From Eximiradius sp. (lineage in GTDB: Bacteria; Bacteroidota; Ignavibacteria; Kapaibacteriales; UBA2268), in the NCBI GenBank assembly GCA_937127445.1, contig CAKZLY010000002.1, forward strand, positions 1 to 64,000: a DNA stretch of 64,000 bases, written 5' to 3'. Position numbers and translations under genes: made by a program. The notes below the pieces were generated by a model, which was not told where the DNA came from, ran no database searches, and saw only the letters and a list, made by a program, of their open reading frames with translations. Position 1 is the first letter of the stretch, and the number at the start of each line of letters is the position of its first letter. This document shows positions 56,495 through 63,611 of this stretch, one piece after another.

Positions 56495-56937
56495 TCTTCC
56501 CTCTTCGGAAGTGTTACAATTGAAAACCAGAAATTTTCAATTTTTCTAACAATTTCACAGAATTGATTAAAATCCAACGGCTTTGTAACATAGCAATTTG
56601 CGTAAAGATTGTATGATTTCAGAATATCTTGTTCATCATTAGAAACAGTCATTACAACAATGGGTATTTTCTTTAATTTTTCATCTTGTTTTACTTCTTG
56701 CAAGACTTCGAAACCATTTTTCCTTGGCATATTAAGGTCAAGTATAATAAGGTTAGGTGTAGGAACGTTTTCGAAGCCATTTTGCTTTCGTAAAAAATCC
56801 ATTGCATAAACACCATCAGAAACAGTATGCAGATTATTAAGCAGTTTGGTGTCTTTGAGTGCTTCTTCGATTAAACGGACATCGCCAATATTATCTTCAA
56901 CTAATAAAATTTCAGCAAAACGTAAATCATAATTCAT
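56491..56937 (-). CDS. Single-domain response regulator (Rcp1-like)
   Basis: A 148-residue receiver domain without an output domain. Acidic pair E14-D15 in LVEDNIGD, phospho-acceptor D67 in LDLNMPRKNG, T94 in VMTVSND and K109 in VTKPLD. The VEDNIGDVRLIEEALK opening and NGFEVL loop are typical of Rcp1-type regulators, the partners of phytochrome-like kinases. This agrees with the kinase type encoded directly upstream, which it overlaps by 11 bases. It probably receives phosphate from that kinase. Confidence 0.92.
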   Translation of the reverse strand: MNYDLRFAEILLVEDNIGDVRLIEEALKDTKLLNNLHTVSDGVYAMDFLRKQNGFENVPTPNLIILDLNMPRKNGFEVLQEVKQDEKLKKIPIVVMTVSNDEQDILKSYNLYANCYVTKPLDFNQFCEIVRKIENFWFSIVTLPKREE

Positions 56938-59209
56938 AGAAATTATCCTTAATGTTTTTCGAAATAGAAAAAATAAATGTAGTCCCCTTGTTTAATTCGG
57001 ATTCGAAGGTAATCCAACCATTATGGCGTTGAACGATACGTTGGCAAATAGCGAGTCCAATTCCATTGCCAGGGAATTCATCACGAGTATGTAGTCTTTG
57101 GAAAATTTTAAATATTCTATCCTTGAATTGGTTGTCAATTCCAATACCGTTATCCTGTACTTTAAAAATATATTCACTATCGTTTTCATCAGAAGAAATT
57201 AAAATTTCGGGTCTTACATCATTTTTTGAGAATTTCAGGGCATTGTTGATTAAATTTAATAAGAGCTGAAAAATTTGCCCTTCGTCGCAAATTATTTCTT
57301 CCGGAAGTTCATTGAAATATATACATGCTTTTTTGTCTCTAATAACTAATTTTAAATTATCGATAACCTTGCTGACAAGATTGTTCATATTCACAGGTTC
57401 AAATTTCCCGGGACGGGTATTAATCCGCGAATAGGACAACAAATCATTCACCATTTGCTGCATTCGTATAGAACCATCAATTGCAAAATCAACAAATTCA
57501 GTAGCTTCTTTGCTGAGTGAACTGAAATATCGCGATTTGAAAAGTTGCAAGAAACTACTAATCATCCGTAAAGGTTCTTGCAAGTCATGAGAAGCAACAT
57601 AAGCAAATTGCTGCAATTCTTCATTTGAACGTAAGAGTTTGCTCAATAATATTTTTTCCTTCTCTTCGAGTATTCTTCTTTCATGAATATCTTGCAAACT
57701 GCCAGCAACCCGGGTTGGCATATCATTTCCTTCTTTTATGATTTTGCCTCTAACCAAATACCACCTATAATTATTACTATTCGATTTCAAACGGAATTCC
57801 AAAACAAACGGCAAGAACTGGATGAAATGATTTCGAACAGTCTCAATTACATAATTTATATCGTCAGGGTGAATTAAATTTAATATATAAGAATTATTGA
57901 AAAGGCTTTCTTCCGCATCAATTTCAAGCATACTCTTTAACTTAGGGGACAACCAAAATTGTTTTTGCTGGACATCCCAATCCCATAAACCATCATTAGA
58001 ACCTTCAACAGCGAGCTCGTATCTTTGCTGAGTTTCAATTAGTTGTTTTCTTAATTCTCGAGCTACAGTAATATCTCGAAATATCAACCAATACCCATTA
58101 GTATTGCCGAAAAAATCTTTTTTTGTCCAAATTTTAGCATTAAGAATAATCTTACTACCATCTTTTTTATAAATTAATATTTCGTCAATAAAACTATATT
58201 CTTTATCAATATCAAGAGTTTGAATTGAGCTAATAATATCTTGTATTAATTTTCCTTTAACTTCAGAATAAGTCATTTCAACCATTTCGCAAAAAGTCTT
58301 ATTTGCATCAATTATTTTCCACTCATTAGAAACATAAATAATGCCGTCAGAACTAGTATGGAACAAATTTTGATAAAGCTTTATTGATTCGTTCAACTCC
58401 CTCGACAAAACATTAATTTTAGTAATATCAATGAAAAATCCAAAAACACCAACTACTTTATTGTTTCTATCTAAATGCTTTGTAAATGAAATATAAAAAT
58501 CTCGAACATTATTTTCGCTGATTAATATCGAAATATCAATAATAAAAGATAAATCATCTGAGATATAAAAATTAGCAACTTGCTGTTCTAAATGAAGTAA
58601 AGAAGTCTGAGAGTTTGACCCAACTTCTGATAATTTTTTATTCAGCAGTATATTCGAATTAGTTTGAAAAATTTTATTAAAAGCACTATTCGAATTTTTT
58701 ATTATAAGATTATCATTCAAATAGATAACTGGAATAGGAATAGAATCAAAAAAGACATTGAAATAATGTTTGATTTCCTCAATTAGAGAGTTTTTTTCTT
58801 CGAATTCCGTAACATCTTGACAAAAAGTAAGATAACCTATTGTTTTACTGCTTTTGTCGCAATATTTAACGTTAATCCATTCACAAACAACAACTGACCC
58901 ATCCTTTTTGTAATTACGATTTTTACTACGGCAATTGTCTTTCGAAGATAATTCATTAATTACTTTTTGAAATAAACCAAAGTCTTGTTCATAAACAAAG
59001 TTAATTTCAAAAACCGACTTACCAATTACTTCATTTTCTTCCCAAAGAAAAATTTCTTGGGCTTTGTTGGACCACTTAACAATACGCCACTTTGTGTCGA
59101 ACAAAATAATAGGGATAGGACTATAACTAAAAAAAATATCAATAGAATAGATAGTATTATCTAACATTAAATTTGATATTTCATTTATACTGCCAATCAT
59201 TTCATTCAT
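56927..59209 (-). CDS. Multi-PAS sensor histidine kinase
   Basis: A 760-residue soluble kinase. Four PAS domains (about 20-135, 145-265, 275-385 and 395-512, the last being PAS-PAC with WDWDVQQKQFWLSPKLK) precede the kinase core. The phospho-acceptor is H541 in VASHDLQEPLRMI, the bacteriophytochrome-type H-box. The ATPase has NLINNALKFS, QDNGIGID and GNGIGLAICQRIVQRH. There are no transmembrane helices and no GAF/PHY chromophore domain, so the signal is cytoplasmic and unknown. The gene is five bases downstream of a lone receiver gene and overlaps the next receiver. Confidence 0.93.
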   Translation of the reverse strand: MNEMIGSINEISNLMLDNTIYSIDIFFSYSPIPIILFDTKWRIVKWSNKAQEIFLWEENEVIGKSVFEINFVYEQDFGLFQKVINELSSKDNCRSKNRNYKKDGSVVVCEWINVKYCDKSSKTIGYLTFCQDVTEFEEKNSLIEEIKHYFNVFFDSIPIPVIYLNDNLIIKNSNSAFNKIFQTNSNILLNKKLSEVGSNSQTSLLHLEQQVANFYISDDLSFIIDISILISENNVRDFYISFTKHLDRNNKVVGVFGFFIDITKINVLSRELNESIKLYQNLFHTSSDGIIYVSNEWKIIDANKTFCEMVEMTYSEVKGKLIQDIISSIQTLDIDKEYSFIDEILIYKKDGSKIILNAKIWTKKDFFGNTNGYWLIFRDITVARELRKQLIETQQRYELAVEGSNDGLWDWDVQQKQFWLSPKLKSMLEIDAEESLFNNSYILNLIHPDDINYVIETVRNHFIQFLPFVLEFRLKSNSNNYRWYLVRGKIIKEGNDMPTRVAGSLQDIHERRILEEKEKILLSKLLRSNEELQQFAYVASHDLQEPLRMISSFLQLFKSRYFSSLSKEATEFVDFAIDGSIRMQQMVNDLLSYSRINTRPGKFEPVNMNNLVSKVIDNLKLVIRDKKACIYFNELPEEIICDEGQIFQLLLNLINNALKFSKNDVRPEILISSDENDSEYIFKVQDNGIGIDNQFKDRIFKIFQRLHTRDEFPGNGIGLAICQRIVQRHNGWITFESELNKGTTFIFSISKNIKDNFYEL

Positions 59210-59214
59210 ATCAG

Positions 59215-59580
59215 TTAAATATCGGAATTACATTCATAAAATTGAATAAGTTCAATAAAGACACTCCAATCCATAGGTTTATTAAGAAAATCAGTAGCTC
59301 CAAAATTAAATGCTTCTTTAATTATAGCCTGGTTTGGTGAGCCTGAATATAAGATAAAGACTATATCATCGTTCATTGCTTTTAAGTTCTTGAGTAAATC
59401 AATACCGTTAATATTTGGCATAAAGTAATCACAAAGCACAACATCGTATTTGTATGGCATATAGCTATCGAGAGCTTCTCTCGCATCATCAAATGCATCA
59501 CACTCGTAACCATTAATTTCTAATGCATTTTTTAACATTTCGAGTGTCGAGTTATCATCATCAACAATAAGTATTCTCAT
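59215..59580 (-). CDS. Single-domain response regulator
   Basis: A 121-residue receiver domain: D7-D8-D9 at the start (RILIVDDDN), phospho-acceptor D51 in LCDYFMPNINGIDLL, S80 in LYSGSP and K99 in NKPMD. ATG 59580 is chosen over an upstream in-frame start because a strong GGGAGGT (59591-59585) sits four bases before it. It is the first gene of the four-gene signalling run 59580-54932 and may act as an input or phosphate sink for the kinase that follows. Confidence 0.92.
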   Translation of the reverse strand: MRILIVDDDNSTLEMLKNALEINGYECDAFDDAREALDSYMPYKYDVVLCDYFMPNINGIDLLKNLKAMNDDIVFILYSGSPNQAIIKEAFNFGATDFLNKPMDWSVFIELIQFYECNSDI

Positions 59581-59647
59581 AATTACCTCCCAAATAGTAA
59601 TCATATAGTGTAGTAATCATTATTCATAATACATACAATTAACATAC

Positions 59648-59908: not shown

Positions 59909-61138
59909 ATGAACATTCTTGAAAGTGTAAAATTAGCAATTGATTCAATTAGAGTTAACAAGCTCAGAACTTTTTTAACTCTATTGAGTATCTCAATTGG
60001 AGTATTTGCTATTATTGGAGCCGGGTCGCTCGTCGCATCCATTAATTCAACAGTTGAAGGAGAAATAGAGGCACTTGGGGAAACTACTTTCTATATATTC
60101 AAAGAACCTAAAATACAAATGGGCAATTCCTGGAGAAAATATGCAAGAAGAAAGCCTATTACTTACTCACAATATCAACAACTGAAAAATCAGTTGTCGC
60201 TTGTGTCGCTTGCTTCTGCTGTTTCAGTTTCTTCGGGACAAACTGTAAAATTTGGTAATAGCGAAACAAATCCAGATGTTAATTTGATTGGCGTCGATGA
60301 AGATTATTTTATTCTGGAAAATCGAAATTTTTCAGAAGGAAGAAATATTGTAAAAAGTGATATTATTGCAAATCGGAATGTGGCAGTTATTGGAAATGAC
60401 GTAAAAGTCAAATTATTTCCCAATATCAACCCCATCGGTAAGATGATTACAATAAAAAATCAGAAATATGAAATAATAGGCGTTCTTGAACCAAAAGGAG
60501 CAATGTTCGGGCAAAGCCAGGACAATATGGTCTTAATTCCGATCACTCATTTGCTTAATTACTTTGCTTCGTTTTGGGAATCTTCTGTTCAGATTGTATT
60601 AAGAGCACGTTCCAGAGATGTATTTAATCAGGCAATTGACGAAGCAATTGGTGTTATGAGGTTGGTTAGAAATCTAAAACCTTGGGAAGAGAACGATTTC
60701 GAAATTGAGACAAATGAATCAATTAAAGAACAGTTTTCTGGGCTTACCCAATATTTGCAATGGTTTGGATTTATCAGTGGAGGGATTGCACTAATTGCAG
60801 CTGGGGTAGGGATAATGAATATTATGTTAGTCTCTGTAAAAGAAAGAACGCGTGAAATAGGTGTGCGGAAAGCGGTTGGCGCGAAACGACGCTGGATAAT
60901 GTATCAGTTTATCATTGAAGCGATAACATTATGCCAGGTTGGTGGAGCAATTGGTATAGTTGTTGGAGTAATCGCAGGTGGCGCATTTGGATTATTGATT
61001 GGTGGGACATTTTCAATCCCTGTTGGATGGGTTGTGTTTAGTGTTATTATTTGCACATTGTTAGGAGTTATCTTTGGAGCTTATCCTGCCTGGAAAGCAG
61101 CAAAGCTTGACCCTATAGAAGCATTAAGATATGAATAA
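59909..61138 (+). CDS. MacB/FtsX-type ABC transporter permease
   Basis: A 409-residue type VII ABC permease. The first helix is at about 20-42 (FLTLLSISIGVFAIIGAGSLVAS). A large periplasmic MacB core domain spans 43-285, and three C-terminal helices (about 290-310, 335-365 and 375-397) carry the FtsX block GIMNIMLVSVKERTREIGVRKAVGAKRRWI. MacB-like permeases need an ATPase partner, which is not encoded next door, so it must be supplied from elsewhere. It starts a four-gene run; the hydrolase gene follows after nine bases. Substrate unknown: export or envelope mechanotransmission are both known in the family. Confidence 0.92.
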   Translation: MNILESVKLAIDSIRVNKLRTFLTLLSISIGVFAIIGAGSLVASINSTVEGEIEALGETTFYIFKEPKIQMGNSWRKYARRKPITYSQYQQLKNQLSLVSLASAVSVSSGQTVKFGNSETNPDVNLIGVDEDYFILENRNFSEGRNIVKSDIIANRNVAVIGNDVKVKLFPNINPIGKMITIKNQKYEIIGVLEPKGAMFGQSQDNMVLIPITHLLNYFASFWESSVQIVLRARSRDVFNQAIDEAIGVMRLVRNLKPWEENDFEIETNESIKEQFSGLTQYLQWFGFISGGIALIAAGVGIMNIMLVSVKERTREIGVRKAVGAKRRWIMYQFIIEAITLCQVGGAIGIVVGVIAGGAFGLLIGGTFSIPVGWVVFSVIICTLLGVIFGAYPAWKAAKLDPIEALRYE

Positions 61139-61147
61139 GTAATTACA

Positions 61148-61810
61148 ATGAAAAAACATCAATACTTTACTGAAAATAATATTGAAGAAGTAGCAACTGA
61201 CATTAAGAACAGGCTTGAACATTTAGAATTAGGCAAATTCAAAGAGTTTTCAATCGATGAGACTGCTTTGTTAGTGCTTGATATGCAAAATTATTTTCTA
61301 CTGGAAAAATCTCAAGCGTTTGTTCCAGCAGCAAAATCAATTGTTACAAACATTAATAAATTGATACAAATATTCAATCGCAATAATTTTCCTGTAATAT
61401 TTACTAAACACTCTAATAATGAACAGAATGCAAAACAAATGGCTGCTCGTTGGAAACATTTAACACCTGAAACTGGTATTTTAAATAAAATTTATGATAA
61501 AATTGATAAAAGGAAAGGAATTTTAATCAATAAAAATCAATATGACGCATTTTATTGCACTAATTTATTGAACATTTTACAAGAGTTAAAAATAAAGCAA
61601 TTAATTATTACGGGTGTGATTGCCAACTTGTGTGTAGAAACTACTGCACGTTCTGCATTTGTAAACGGGTTCTACACGATAGTACCAATTGATGCAACTG
61701 CTACTTATAATTTTGATTTGCATTTATCATCATTAGTTAATCTATCATTTTCAATTAATTCCACTCCTACAACAAGCGAATTGATAAACTATTTGGAGAG
61801 AAATATTTGA
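61148..61810 (+). CDS. Isochorismatase-family cysteine hydrolase
   Basis: A 220-residue hydrolase with the family triad D45 (LVLDMQNYF), K129 (INKNQYDAF) and C162 (ITGVIANLCVETTARSA). The cis-peptide segment GVIAN precedes the nucleophile. The family includes nicotinamidase, isochorismatase, N-carbamoylsarcosine amidase and peroxyureidoacrylate amidase. An N-terminal extension of about 35 residues is unusual and there is no clear metal site of nicotinamidases (DxHxxxxH), which argues against that role. The stop overlaps the next start by four bases (TTGA), and it sits in an operon with a flavoprotein and a radical SAM enzyme. Confidence 0.88.
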   Translation: MKKHQYFTENNIEEVATDIKNRLEHLELGKFKEFSIDETALLVLDMQNYFLLEKSQAFVPAAKSIVTNINKLIQIFNRNNFPVIFTKHSNNEQNAKQMAARWKHLTPETGILNKIYDKIDKRKGILINKNQYDAFYCTNLLNILQELKIKQLIITGVIANLCVETTARSAFVNGFYTIVPIDATATYNFDLHLSSLVNLSFSINSTPTTSELINYLERNI

Positions 61811-62661
61811 AGGCAATTGTTATTGGTGCAGGTCCAGCAGGATGTGCCGCAGCCATACAATTAAAACGATTTGGATTGGATATCGAATTAATCGAGCGAG
61901 ATCGAGTTGGCGGATTAGTGCAAAATGCAAATTTAATAGAAAATTATTTGGGTTTTCCAAATGGTATCACTGGAGAGAGGTTTTGCGAATTGATAAAAGA
62001 ACATATCAATAAACTTGTTATTGATGTGATTTTTGATGAAGTGACAAATATTGATTTTATCGACAATAAATTTATCATTACACTAACAAAGAATACAACA
62101 ACAAGCGATATATGTATTGTTGCCACTGGAACTAAGCCTGTTAAACTTCCGGATGAAATGATAGCAAAAGAAGCGAACAATTTAATATACTACGAAATCG
62201 CTAATTTAAAACAACAAATTTCAGATTGTAAAATAGCTGTTTTAGGAAGTGGAGATGCAGCATTTGATTATGCAGTTTCGTTATCAGATAGAAACACTGT
62301 TACAATACTAATGAGAGGAGAAAACTTCAAAGCAATTCGAACATTGGTTAACACTTGTAAAAAAATTAAGAATATTTCATTAGAAAAAAATATTCAGTTA
62401 ATAAATATTATTAGAATAAATGAAAAATTGTTGTTAAATTGCATAAGGAATAACGAGTTAGTCAATTTTGAAGTTGATTATTTGATTGTAGCAATAGGTA
62501 GAGAAAAAAATCTACCAGAGATAACTGAAGAAGCTTTAAAATCAGATAGATTATTTTTAATTGGAGATGTTGCTTCGGGAAAAAACATTAGGCAAGCATC
62601 AATAGCAGCAGGCAATGGTATTGAAGTTGCAATGAAAGTGTATTTAGCGAATAAGGATTAA
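61807..62661 (+). CDS. Thioredoxin-reductase-like FAD/NAD(P) flavoprotein lacking the redox CxxC
   Basis: A 284-residue two-domain flavoprotein. The FAD motif GAGPAG is at 7-12, the NAD(P)-binding domain starts with VLGSGDAAFDYA (about 144-155), and the C-terminal FAD contact is GDVASGKN. In thioredoxin reductase a CxTC pair lies just before the NAD domain; the corresponding stretch here reads YYEIANLK, with no cysteine pair. It therefore cannot act as a normal disulfide reductase and may pass electrons from NAD(P)H to another acceptor. The start is TTG at 61807, overlapping the hydrolase stop. The radical SAM gene begins two bases after its stop. Confidence 0.86.
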   Translation: MKAIVIGAGPAGCAAAIQLKRFGLDIELIERDRVGGLVQNANLIENYLGFPNGITGERFCELIKEHINKLVIDVIFDEVTNIDFIDNKFIITLTKNTTTSDICIVATGTKPVKLPDEMIAKEANNLIYYEIANLKQQISDCKIAVLGSGDAAFDYAVSLSDRNTVTILMRGENFKAIRTLVNTCKKIKNISLEKNIQLINIIRINEKLLLNCIRNNELVNFEVDYLIVAIGREKNLPEITEEALKSDRLFLIGDVASGKNIRQASIAAGNGIEVAMKVYLANKD

Positions 62662-62663
62662 CT

Positions 62664-63611
62664 ATGAGAGTAATAGCAGAAACAGAAAAATCAGATATTG
62701 CAACAGTGTATATTGCGGAGTTTGGACAAGGTAAATATTTAGAATTCGTTGAATCAACTCAGCCACCTATCCCAAGAGAAAAAAAATGGGTATTAATTGT
62801 ATCCACCTTATTTGGTTGCCCAATTGAATGTAAGTTTTGCGATTCAGGTTGGCAGTATTTTGGGAAATTATCTAAACACGAAATATTTCAACAAATTGAT
62901 TATATGGTTGCAAAACGCTTCCCAACACGCGAAATAAACATAGATAAATTTAAAATACAATTCTCAAGAATGGGCGAACCAACATTGAACGAAAATGTTC
63001 TCAACGTGTTAGATGAATTTGACCAACATTTTAAAGCTAAGAACTTTATCCCTTCTTTATCAACAGTTGCTCCGATTGGAAGAGATAATTTTTTTGAAAG
63101 ATTGCTTGAAATCAAAAAAAGAAAATACGATGATACGTTTCAGTTACAATTTTCAATACATTCTACAAGCTACGCTCAGAGAGACAAAATAATACCTGTC
63201 AAAAAAATGAATTTCGAAGAAATAGCGAAATATGGTGAAAATTTTTATAGTGGGAATAACAGAAAGATAACACTTAACTTTGCTCTATTTAAAGAGGCTG
63301 AAGTTGATGTAAATACTATTAGAAAGTATTTTAGTCCAGATATATTTTTAATTAAATTAACCCCCGTCAATCCAACAGCTGCTTCAAAGAATAACAACAT
63401 TGTTTCAGAAGTCTTTTCTAATTCCAATGTTTTCAATTTAGTTAGACAATTTGAAGTATCTGGATATAATGTTATATTAAGCATTGGGGAAATGGAAGAA
63501 AACAAGATTGGGAGCAATTGCGGACAGTATATTACTAATTTTTTGAAAATGCGCCAAAAATTAGATGACGCATATACATACCAGTTGATTTTCACAAACG
63601 AAAGCATATAA
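62664..63611 (+). CDS. RlmN/Cfr-like radical SAM enzyme
   Basis: A 315-residue radical SAM protein. Cluster cysteines C52, C56 and C59 (CPIECKFC) have the CxxxCxxC spacing. SRMGEPTLN (101-109) matches the GMGEP motif of RlmN, SIHS (164-167) the SAM-binding strand, and C286 in SNCGQ the methyl-carrying C-terminal cysteine of RlmN/Cfr. The second catalytic cysteine of RlmN, seven residues before the first cluster cysteine, is I45 here. The reaction may therefore differ from rRNA adenine C2-methylation. It is two bases after the flavoprotein, a possible electron donor for the cluster, and ends before a terminator. Confidence 0.87.
   Translation: MRVIAETEKSDIATVYIAEFGQGKYLEFVESTQPPIPREKKWVLIVSTLFGCPIECKFCDSGWQYFGKLSKHEIFQQIDYMVAKRFPTREINIDKFKIQFSRMGEPTLNENVLNVLDEFDQHFKAKNFIPSLSTVAPIGRDNFFERLLEIKKRKYDDTFQLQFSIHSTSYAQRDKIIPVKKMNFEEIAKYGENFYSGNNRKITLNFALFKEAEVDVNTIRKYFSPDIFLIKLTPVNPTAASKNNNIVSEVFSNSNVFNLVRQFEVSGYNVILSIGEMEENKIGSNCGQYITNFLKMRQKLDDAYTYQLIFTNESI

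Follow-up and report, generated by a model that had tools for sequence, protein, structure and literature searches.

Methylation by way of a methyl-cysteine radical is, to our knowledge, characterised only for RlmN and Cfr; both enzymes act on RNA and both need a second cysteine. RlmN (E. coli rlmN, TIGR00048) is an adenine-C2 methylase of 23S rRNA A2503 and tRNA A37, and Cfr is an adenine-C8 methylase associated with antibiotic resistance. During RlmN catalysis, Glu105 activates C355 for methylation by S-adenosylmethionine (SAM), a second SAM yields the radical, and addition of the methylene radical to adenine forms a crosslink, which breaks once C118 has removed the proton; RlmN lacking C118 stalls as a covalent adduct (PMC9692996). 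The mechanism of Cfr is alike (PMC13001441). Here we analysed a 64,000-nucleotide window of DNA from Eximiradius sp. (Bacteroidota; Ignavibacteria; contig CAKZLY010000002.1, positions 1 to 64,000), in which genes for a cysteine hydrolase, a flavoprotein and an RlmN-related radical SAM protein stand in one run. We refer to these genes of the window genome, and to their products, as hyd, flav and rsam, respectively.

The hyd gene (61148..61810, forward strand; PF00857, 1.9e-37) encodes a 220-amino-acid cysteine hydrolase of the isochorismatase superfamily. It is followed by flav (61807..62661, forward strand, TTG start; PF07992, 1.8e-25), whose 284-amino-acid product is a FAD/NAD(P)H oxidoreductase with matches to thioredoxin reductase (TrxR)-type profiles, and by rsam (62664..63611, forward strand), encoding a 315-amino-acid RlmN/Cfr-related enzyme with a weak Radical_SAM match. 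Scanning one genome per species, we identified 369 rsam relatives and retrieved the best 80. By record titles, these 80 include Bacteroidota, Ignavibacteria, Cloacimonadota, Melainabacteria, Chloroflexi, Zixibacteria, Latescibacterota, Krumholzibacteriota, Acidobacteria, Thermotogae and others, together with the archaeal Thermoplasmata and Methanomicrobiaceae; we take the rsam-bearing lineages to be mostly anaerobic. A neighbourhood search had been proposed by the first-pass annotation of the window, and it found the three genes adjacent in many other genomes: where at least 2.2 kb of upstream sequence was present (n = 58), 44 loci carried hyd-flav-rsam, 8 carried flav-rsam and 6 carried rsam alone. 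With start codons picked mechanically, the overlap between flav and rsam is exactly 4 bases in 32/61 loci, and hyd and flav also overlap in most. No other neighbour family recurs beside the cassette across phyla to a comparable extent. Linkage of hyd, flav and rsam is strongly supported, and we are highly confident that the three genes form a functional module.

Gene order within the module is not fixed. The window's own taxonomic family contains three arrangements (hyd-flav-rsam, flav-rsam-hyd and rsam-flav), and in Melainabacteria-type genomes hyd-flav pairs are sited apart from rsam, with most genomes holding all three genes. Where rsam seemed to lack hyd, a hyd gene was present in 21 of the 24 genomes searched, some of these copies in fact lying next to rsam, hidden by shadow open reading frames. 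The three proteins show correlated sequence distances (r 0.77-0.82; 0/2000 permutations as high), which fits joint inheritance, yet shared descent also predicts a correlation. The genes might be adjacent by chance or shared ancestry and do separate, unrelated housekeeping jobs, as synteny is common to nearby genomes and common descent alone would produce the distance correlation. We regard this as very improbable, since overlapping genes in the same order are found both in distant phyla and in archaea, linkage survives independent rearrangements, split genomes keep the parts, and the presence and absence of flav and rsam are near-identical.

The last point comes from 100 related genomes, 16 of which carry rsam. 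The flav subfamily is present in 16/16 of these versus 1/84 of the others (G013; Fisher 1.3e-17, not corrected for ancestry). Close-type hyd genes (at least 277 bits) occur in 10/16 rsam genomes, and a distant hyd lies beside rsam in two more (G006 and G026); distant hyds are also found in genomes without rsam. When another phylum was scanned phylum-wide, rsam was recovered from 1/98 genomes. The viral contigs scanned held no rsam relative, and the plasmids scanned gave only a distant RlmN-like match.

We compared rsam with RlmN and Cfr by profile, tree and alignment. Against TIGR00048, the RlmN equivalog, rsam scores 59.8 bits (cut-off 290), and against the Cfr profile 41 bits (cut-off 530). 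The first-pass annotation had asked whether a separate canonical rlmN exists in the genome; one does (G000:C21:68844-69902), scoring 336 bits and so exceeding the equivalog cut-off. All 61 rsam-family members match RlmN/Cfr models, with a best value of only 1.2e-18, and the family matches no curated NCBIfam family above its cut-off. In a rapidly built tree with 10 RlmN/Cfr rows, the 61 rsam rows form one clade with full support; the branch between the two groups is very long, and what it establishes is no more than their clear separation. Because a canonical rlmN lies elsewhere, the clade is separate, the N-terminal domain is missing and there is no C118, the rsam family is, judged by sequence, a distinct RlmN-like branch and not RlmN.

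Alignment with E. coli RlmN bore out the residues named in the first-pass annotation. C52/C56/C59 align with the CxxxCxxC cluster motif C125/C129/C132, C286 with the methyl carrier C355 (C338 in Cfr), E27 with Glu105 and N236 with N312, and all six rsam residues are invariant in 61 sequences. RlmN and rsam further share the radical SAM core, the GEP motif, the placement of the carrier in Cys-Gly-Gln, and the fold: the rsam structure model (pLDDT 89) has as its best solved match RlmN crosslinked to tRNA (5hr6, TM 0.68). The features common to Cfr and rsam are the same class-A ones. Unlike RlmN, rsam has I45 in the place of C118; this position is I/T/L/M/S across the family and Cys in 0/61, and among the 61 sequences cysteine conservation is limited to C52, C56, C59 and C286, leaving no fifth conserved Cys to replace C118. 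Selenocysteine was considered and rejected, the in-frame TGA of one relative being a normal stop. Substrate-facing residues differ as well, with RlmN M176-G177 becoming A/S101-R102 and DDIDAACGQ becoming ENxIGSNCGQ, and the family has further polar invariants of its own (K97, Q99, R102, Q160, Q162, K201, K231, E279 and N280). The protein has no N-terminal HhH RNA-binding domain: the alignment begins at the beta-extension, some 70-95 N-terminal residues being missing, and the median isoelectric point (pI) is ~7.0, versus mostly 7.6-10 for RlmN proteins. Compared with Cfr, rsam likewise has no C105 equivalent, no N-terminal domain and no resistance context.

Since rsam retains the residues required as far as the addition step but not the last one, radical one-carbon transfer, or another use of a cysteine-bound methylene radical, with a different resolution step is suggested. 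By analogy with RlmN, E27 would activate C286, which would receive a methyl group from one SAM, and a second SAM would be cleaved at the [4Fe-4S] cluster of C52/C56/C59. The 5'-deoxyadenosyl radical would abstract hydrogen from S-methyl-cysteine, and the CH2 radical would add to an unsaturated substrate carbon. As an equivalent of C118, the general-base/resolving cysteine, is absent from the whole family, the adduct would have to be resolved otherwise: by substrate assistance, by another polar residue, or by release of a product other than methylated adenine. From the conserved residues, we judge that methyl-carrier chemistry in rsam is somewhat better than an even proposition. A doubtful alternative is that the protein lost this chemistry, C286 now serving as a hydrogen donor, ligand or structural residue while the enzyme rearranges, dehydrogenates or fragments a small molecule. 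In its favour, C118 is present in no family member, and the replacement of M176/G177 by A/S101 and R102 and the polar invariants describe a pocket unlike that of RlmN; against it, the equivalents of Glu105 and Cys355, which make S-methyl-cysteine in RlmN, are invariant in 61 sequences, the cysteine within the same Cys-Gly-Gln motif.

The first-pass annotation had proposed, as one reading, modification of a non-ribosomal or different RNA target. The module could add a one-carbon unit to an RNA target such as a tRNA adenosine, flav reducing rsam and hyd trimming the group or supplying a precursor. No solved or curated relatives other than RlmN and Cfr were found, and these act on RNA; their Glu105 and carrier cysteine are kept, the top structural match is an RNA-crosslinked enzyme, and the cassette adjoins a ribosomal protein/fusA operon, on the opposite strand, in 8 Bacteroidales loci. 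We nevertheless consider RNA unlikely: loss of the RNA-binding domain leans against it, as do the lower pI, the missing C118, the patchy distribution (16/100 relatives; 1/98 in another phylum) and a cysteine amidohydrolase with no evident part in RNA modification. A small-molecule substrate is somewhat more probable than not, because the family combines the absence of an RNA-binding domain and a near-neutral pI with polar invariants and an amidohydrolase partner, and because two divergent rsam genes are coupled to an acyl-CoA-ligase-like gene. In these two class-level relatives (L161:6627-9280 and L162:4791-7462), the divergent rsam overlaps the ligase-like gene by 4 bases and comes after genes for HPPD and a homogentisate-dioxygenase-like protein.

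The flav product had been described as lacking the redox cysteine pair, and the window protein indeed has no CxxC. In an alignment of 48 homologues, the position of the thioredoxin-reductase redox site carries an E-x-x-P-like sequence, and CxxC occurs in only 3/48 rows, at no conserved place. Low-molecular-weight thioredoxin reductase shares the FAD- and NAD(P)-binding domains of flav but retains the cysteine pair. Ferredoxin(flavodoxin)-NADP reductases (FNRs) of the TrxR-like type have no CxxC, and in this they resemble flav; the flav profile is nonetheless nearer TrxR (178 bits) than the known FNR structure 3ab1 (103 bits). A TrxR-like ferredoxin/flavodoxin-NADP reductase family is described in PMC10294844. 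Members of the flav subfamily score at least 228 bits versus at most 183 bits for each genome's own TrxB, and this score gap clearly sets flav apart as what is, by its profile, a distinct subfamily. That the flavoprotein feeds electrons to the radical SAM enzyme, as proposed earlier, is plausible because flav-rsam is the tightest link. It would pass NAD(P)H electrons, directly or via ferredoxin or flavodoxin, to SAM cleavage and to reduction of the C286 thiyl radical; we rate such a redox partnership just above even.

The third enzyme has a putative catalytic triad, D45-K129-C162, invariant in 41 homologues, and its structure model (pLDDT 94) resembles cysteine hydrolases, RutB, triuret hydrolase and isochorismatase. 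Fold and Asp-Lys-Cys triad are common to hyd and the amidohydrolases of the isochorismatase superfamily (RutB, triuret/biuret hydrolase, N-carbamoylsarcosine amidase and PSPPH_2384), but hyd falls under every curated cut-off and has invariants of its own (H88, N90 and W102). The link considered between hyd and an orphan-SelD isochorismatase (PMC5029168) amounts to a shared Pfam family. Within the module, hyd would cleave an amide or ureido bond of the precursor or product. Separately, a sister hyd subfamily (L149:1790-7845 and L150) occurs in a run with genes for ornithine carbamoyltransferase, carbamate kinase, aspartate carbamoyltransferase and ornithine aminotransferase, and these neighbours in L149 hint at ureido-type substrates for that branch.

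Our best explanation, which we hold tentatively, is that the module makes or processes a small molecule, with rsam as a class-A-like radical SAM enzyme transferring a one-carbon unit, flav as its reductase and hyd as an amidohydrolase. Taken as a conjunction of module, methyl-carrier chemistry, flav redox partner and small molecule, the proposal is possible but short of even, the chemistry being deduced from conserved residues. Several observations weigh against it. Most of the retrieved rsam relatives, and many of the loci, come from metagenome-assembled genomes. Four of the 16 rsam genomes depart from the three-gene set, G023, G031 and G050 having only distant hyds away from rsam and G045 none. 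G013 has a flav-family gene without rsam (G013:C282:504-1376; L158, L163), which reflects either loss or an assembly gap, and the two class-level relatives described above (G351 and G379) carry a divergent rsam but no flav-family gene. Finally, C286 might be an ordinary thiol that serves a different purpose, and RlmN without C118 forms a stalled adduct (PMC9692996).

In the open-licence papers searched, we found no account of the three genes together or of the rsam family. The three-gene set suggests a metabolic module that has yet to be described. It is common among uncultured phyla of bacteria and occurs in some archaea, and so may be a missing step of their metabolism. That the family is a widespread functional branch, third after RlmN and Cfr, which lacks the RNA-binding domain and the resolving cysteine and applies methyl-carrier radical chemistry to a small molecule as part of a new pathway of three enzymes, is a prospect we would put below even. 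Such a family could extend methyl-cysteine radical chemistry to other substrates and, since it keeps the carrier cysteine but has lost the second, would put to the test how the crosslink between protein and substrate is resolved. The rsam protein is easily mis-annotated as RlmN, or overlooked because the window protein scores under the Pfam Radical_SAM cut-off.

Upstream of the module lies a gene for a MacB/FtsX-type ABC permease (MacB_PCD+FtsX; 59909..61138, forward strand), 9 bases 5' of hyd. Coordinates of the four open reading frames and their spacings of 9, -4 and 2 bases were reproduced exactly. The description of one four-gene run holds in this genus but not beyond it, as the permease adjoins the cassette only in congeners; we therefore rejected it as a module member, and with it the exporter role suggested in the first-pass annotation. 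The permease is 96-98% identical to those of two congeners (L041 and L042), the flavoprotein only 73-76%, so that the two differ in rate. The promoter previously predicted before the run is at background level (32 promoter-like sites versus 26.2 +/- 4.8 in shuffles), and a search for a terminator-like site after the run, where one had been predicted, found none. Genes for a divergent PAS-rich histidine kinase and a response regulator (56927-59604, reverse strand) lie 5' of the permease and are kept in congeners.

Other neighbours of the cassette were assessed in the retrieved loci. Ribosomal protein, GTPase and ABC genes were set aside as lineage-specific synteny or common families, and so was a small, lineage-specific gene that precedes hyd in Melainabacteria-type genomes and looks coiled-coil-like by eye. 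In five loci from Krumholzibacteriota, Latescibacterota and relatives (L077, L081, L090, L096 and L111), the cassette lies directly 3' of a gene for an MttB-family corrinoid methyltransferase, a position that links the module with methyl-group metabolism in these lineages, not in general. Genes for a homocysteine S-methyltransferase and a methionine-synthase-activation-like protein also precede the cassette in L077 and L081, and L081 additionally carries a gene for an MtgC-like corrinoid protein.

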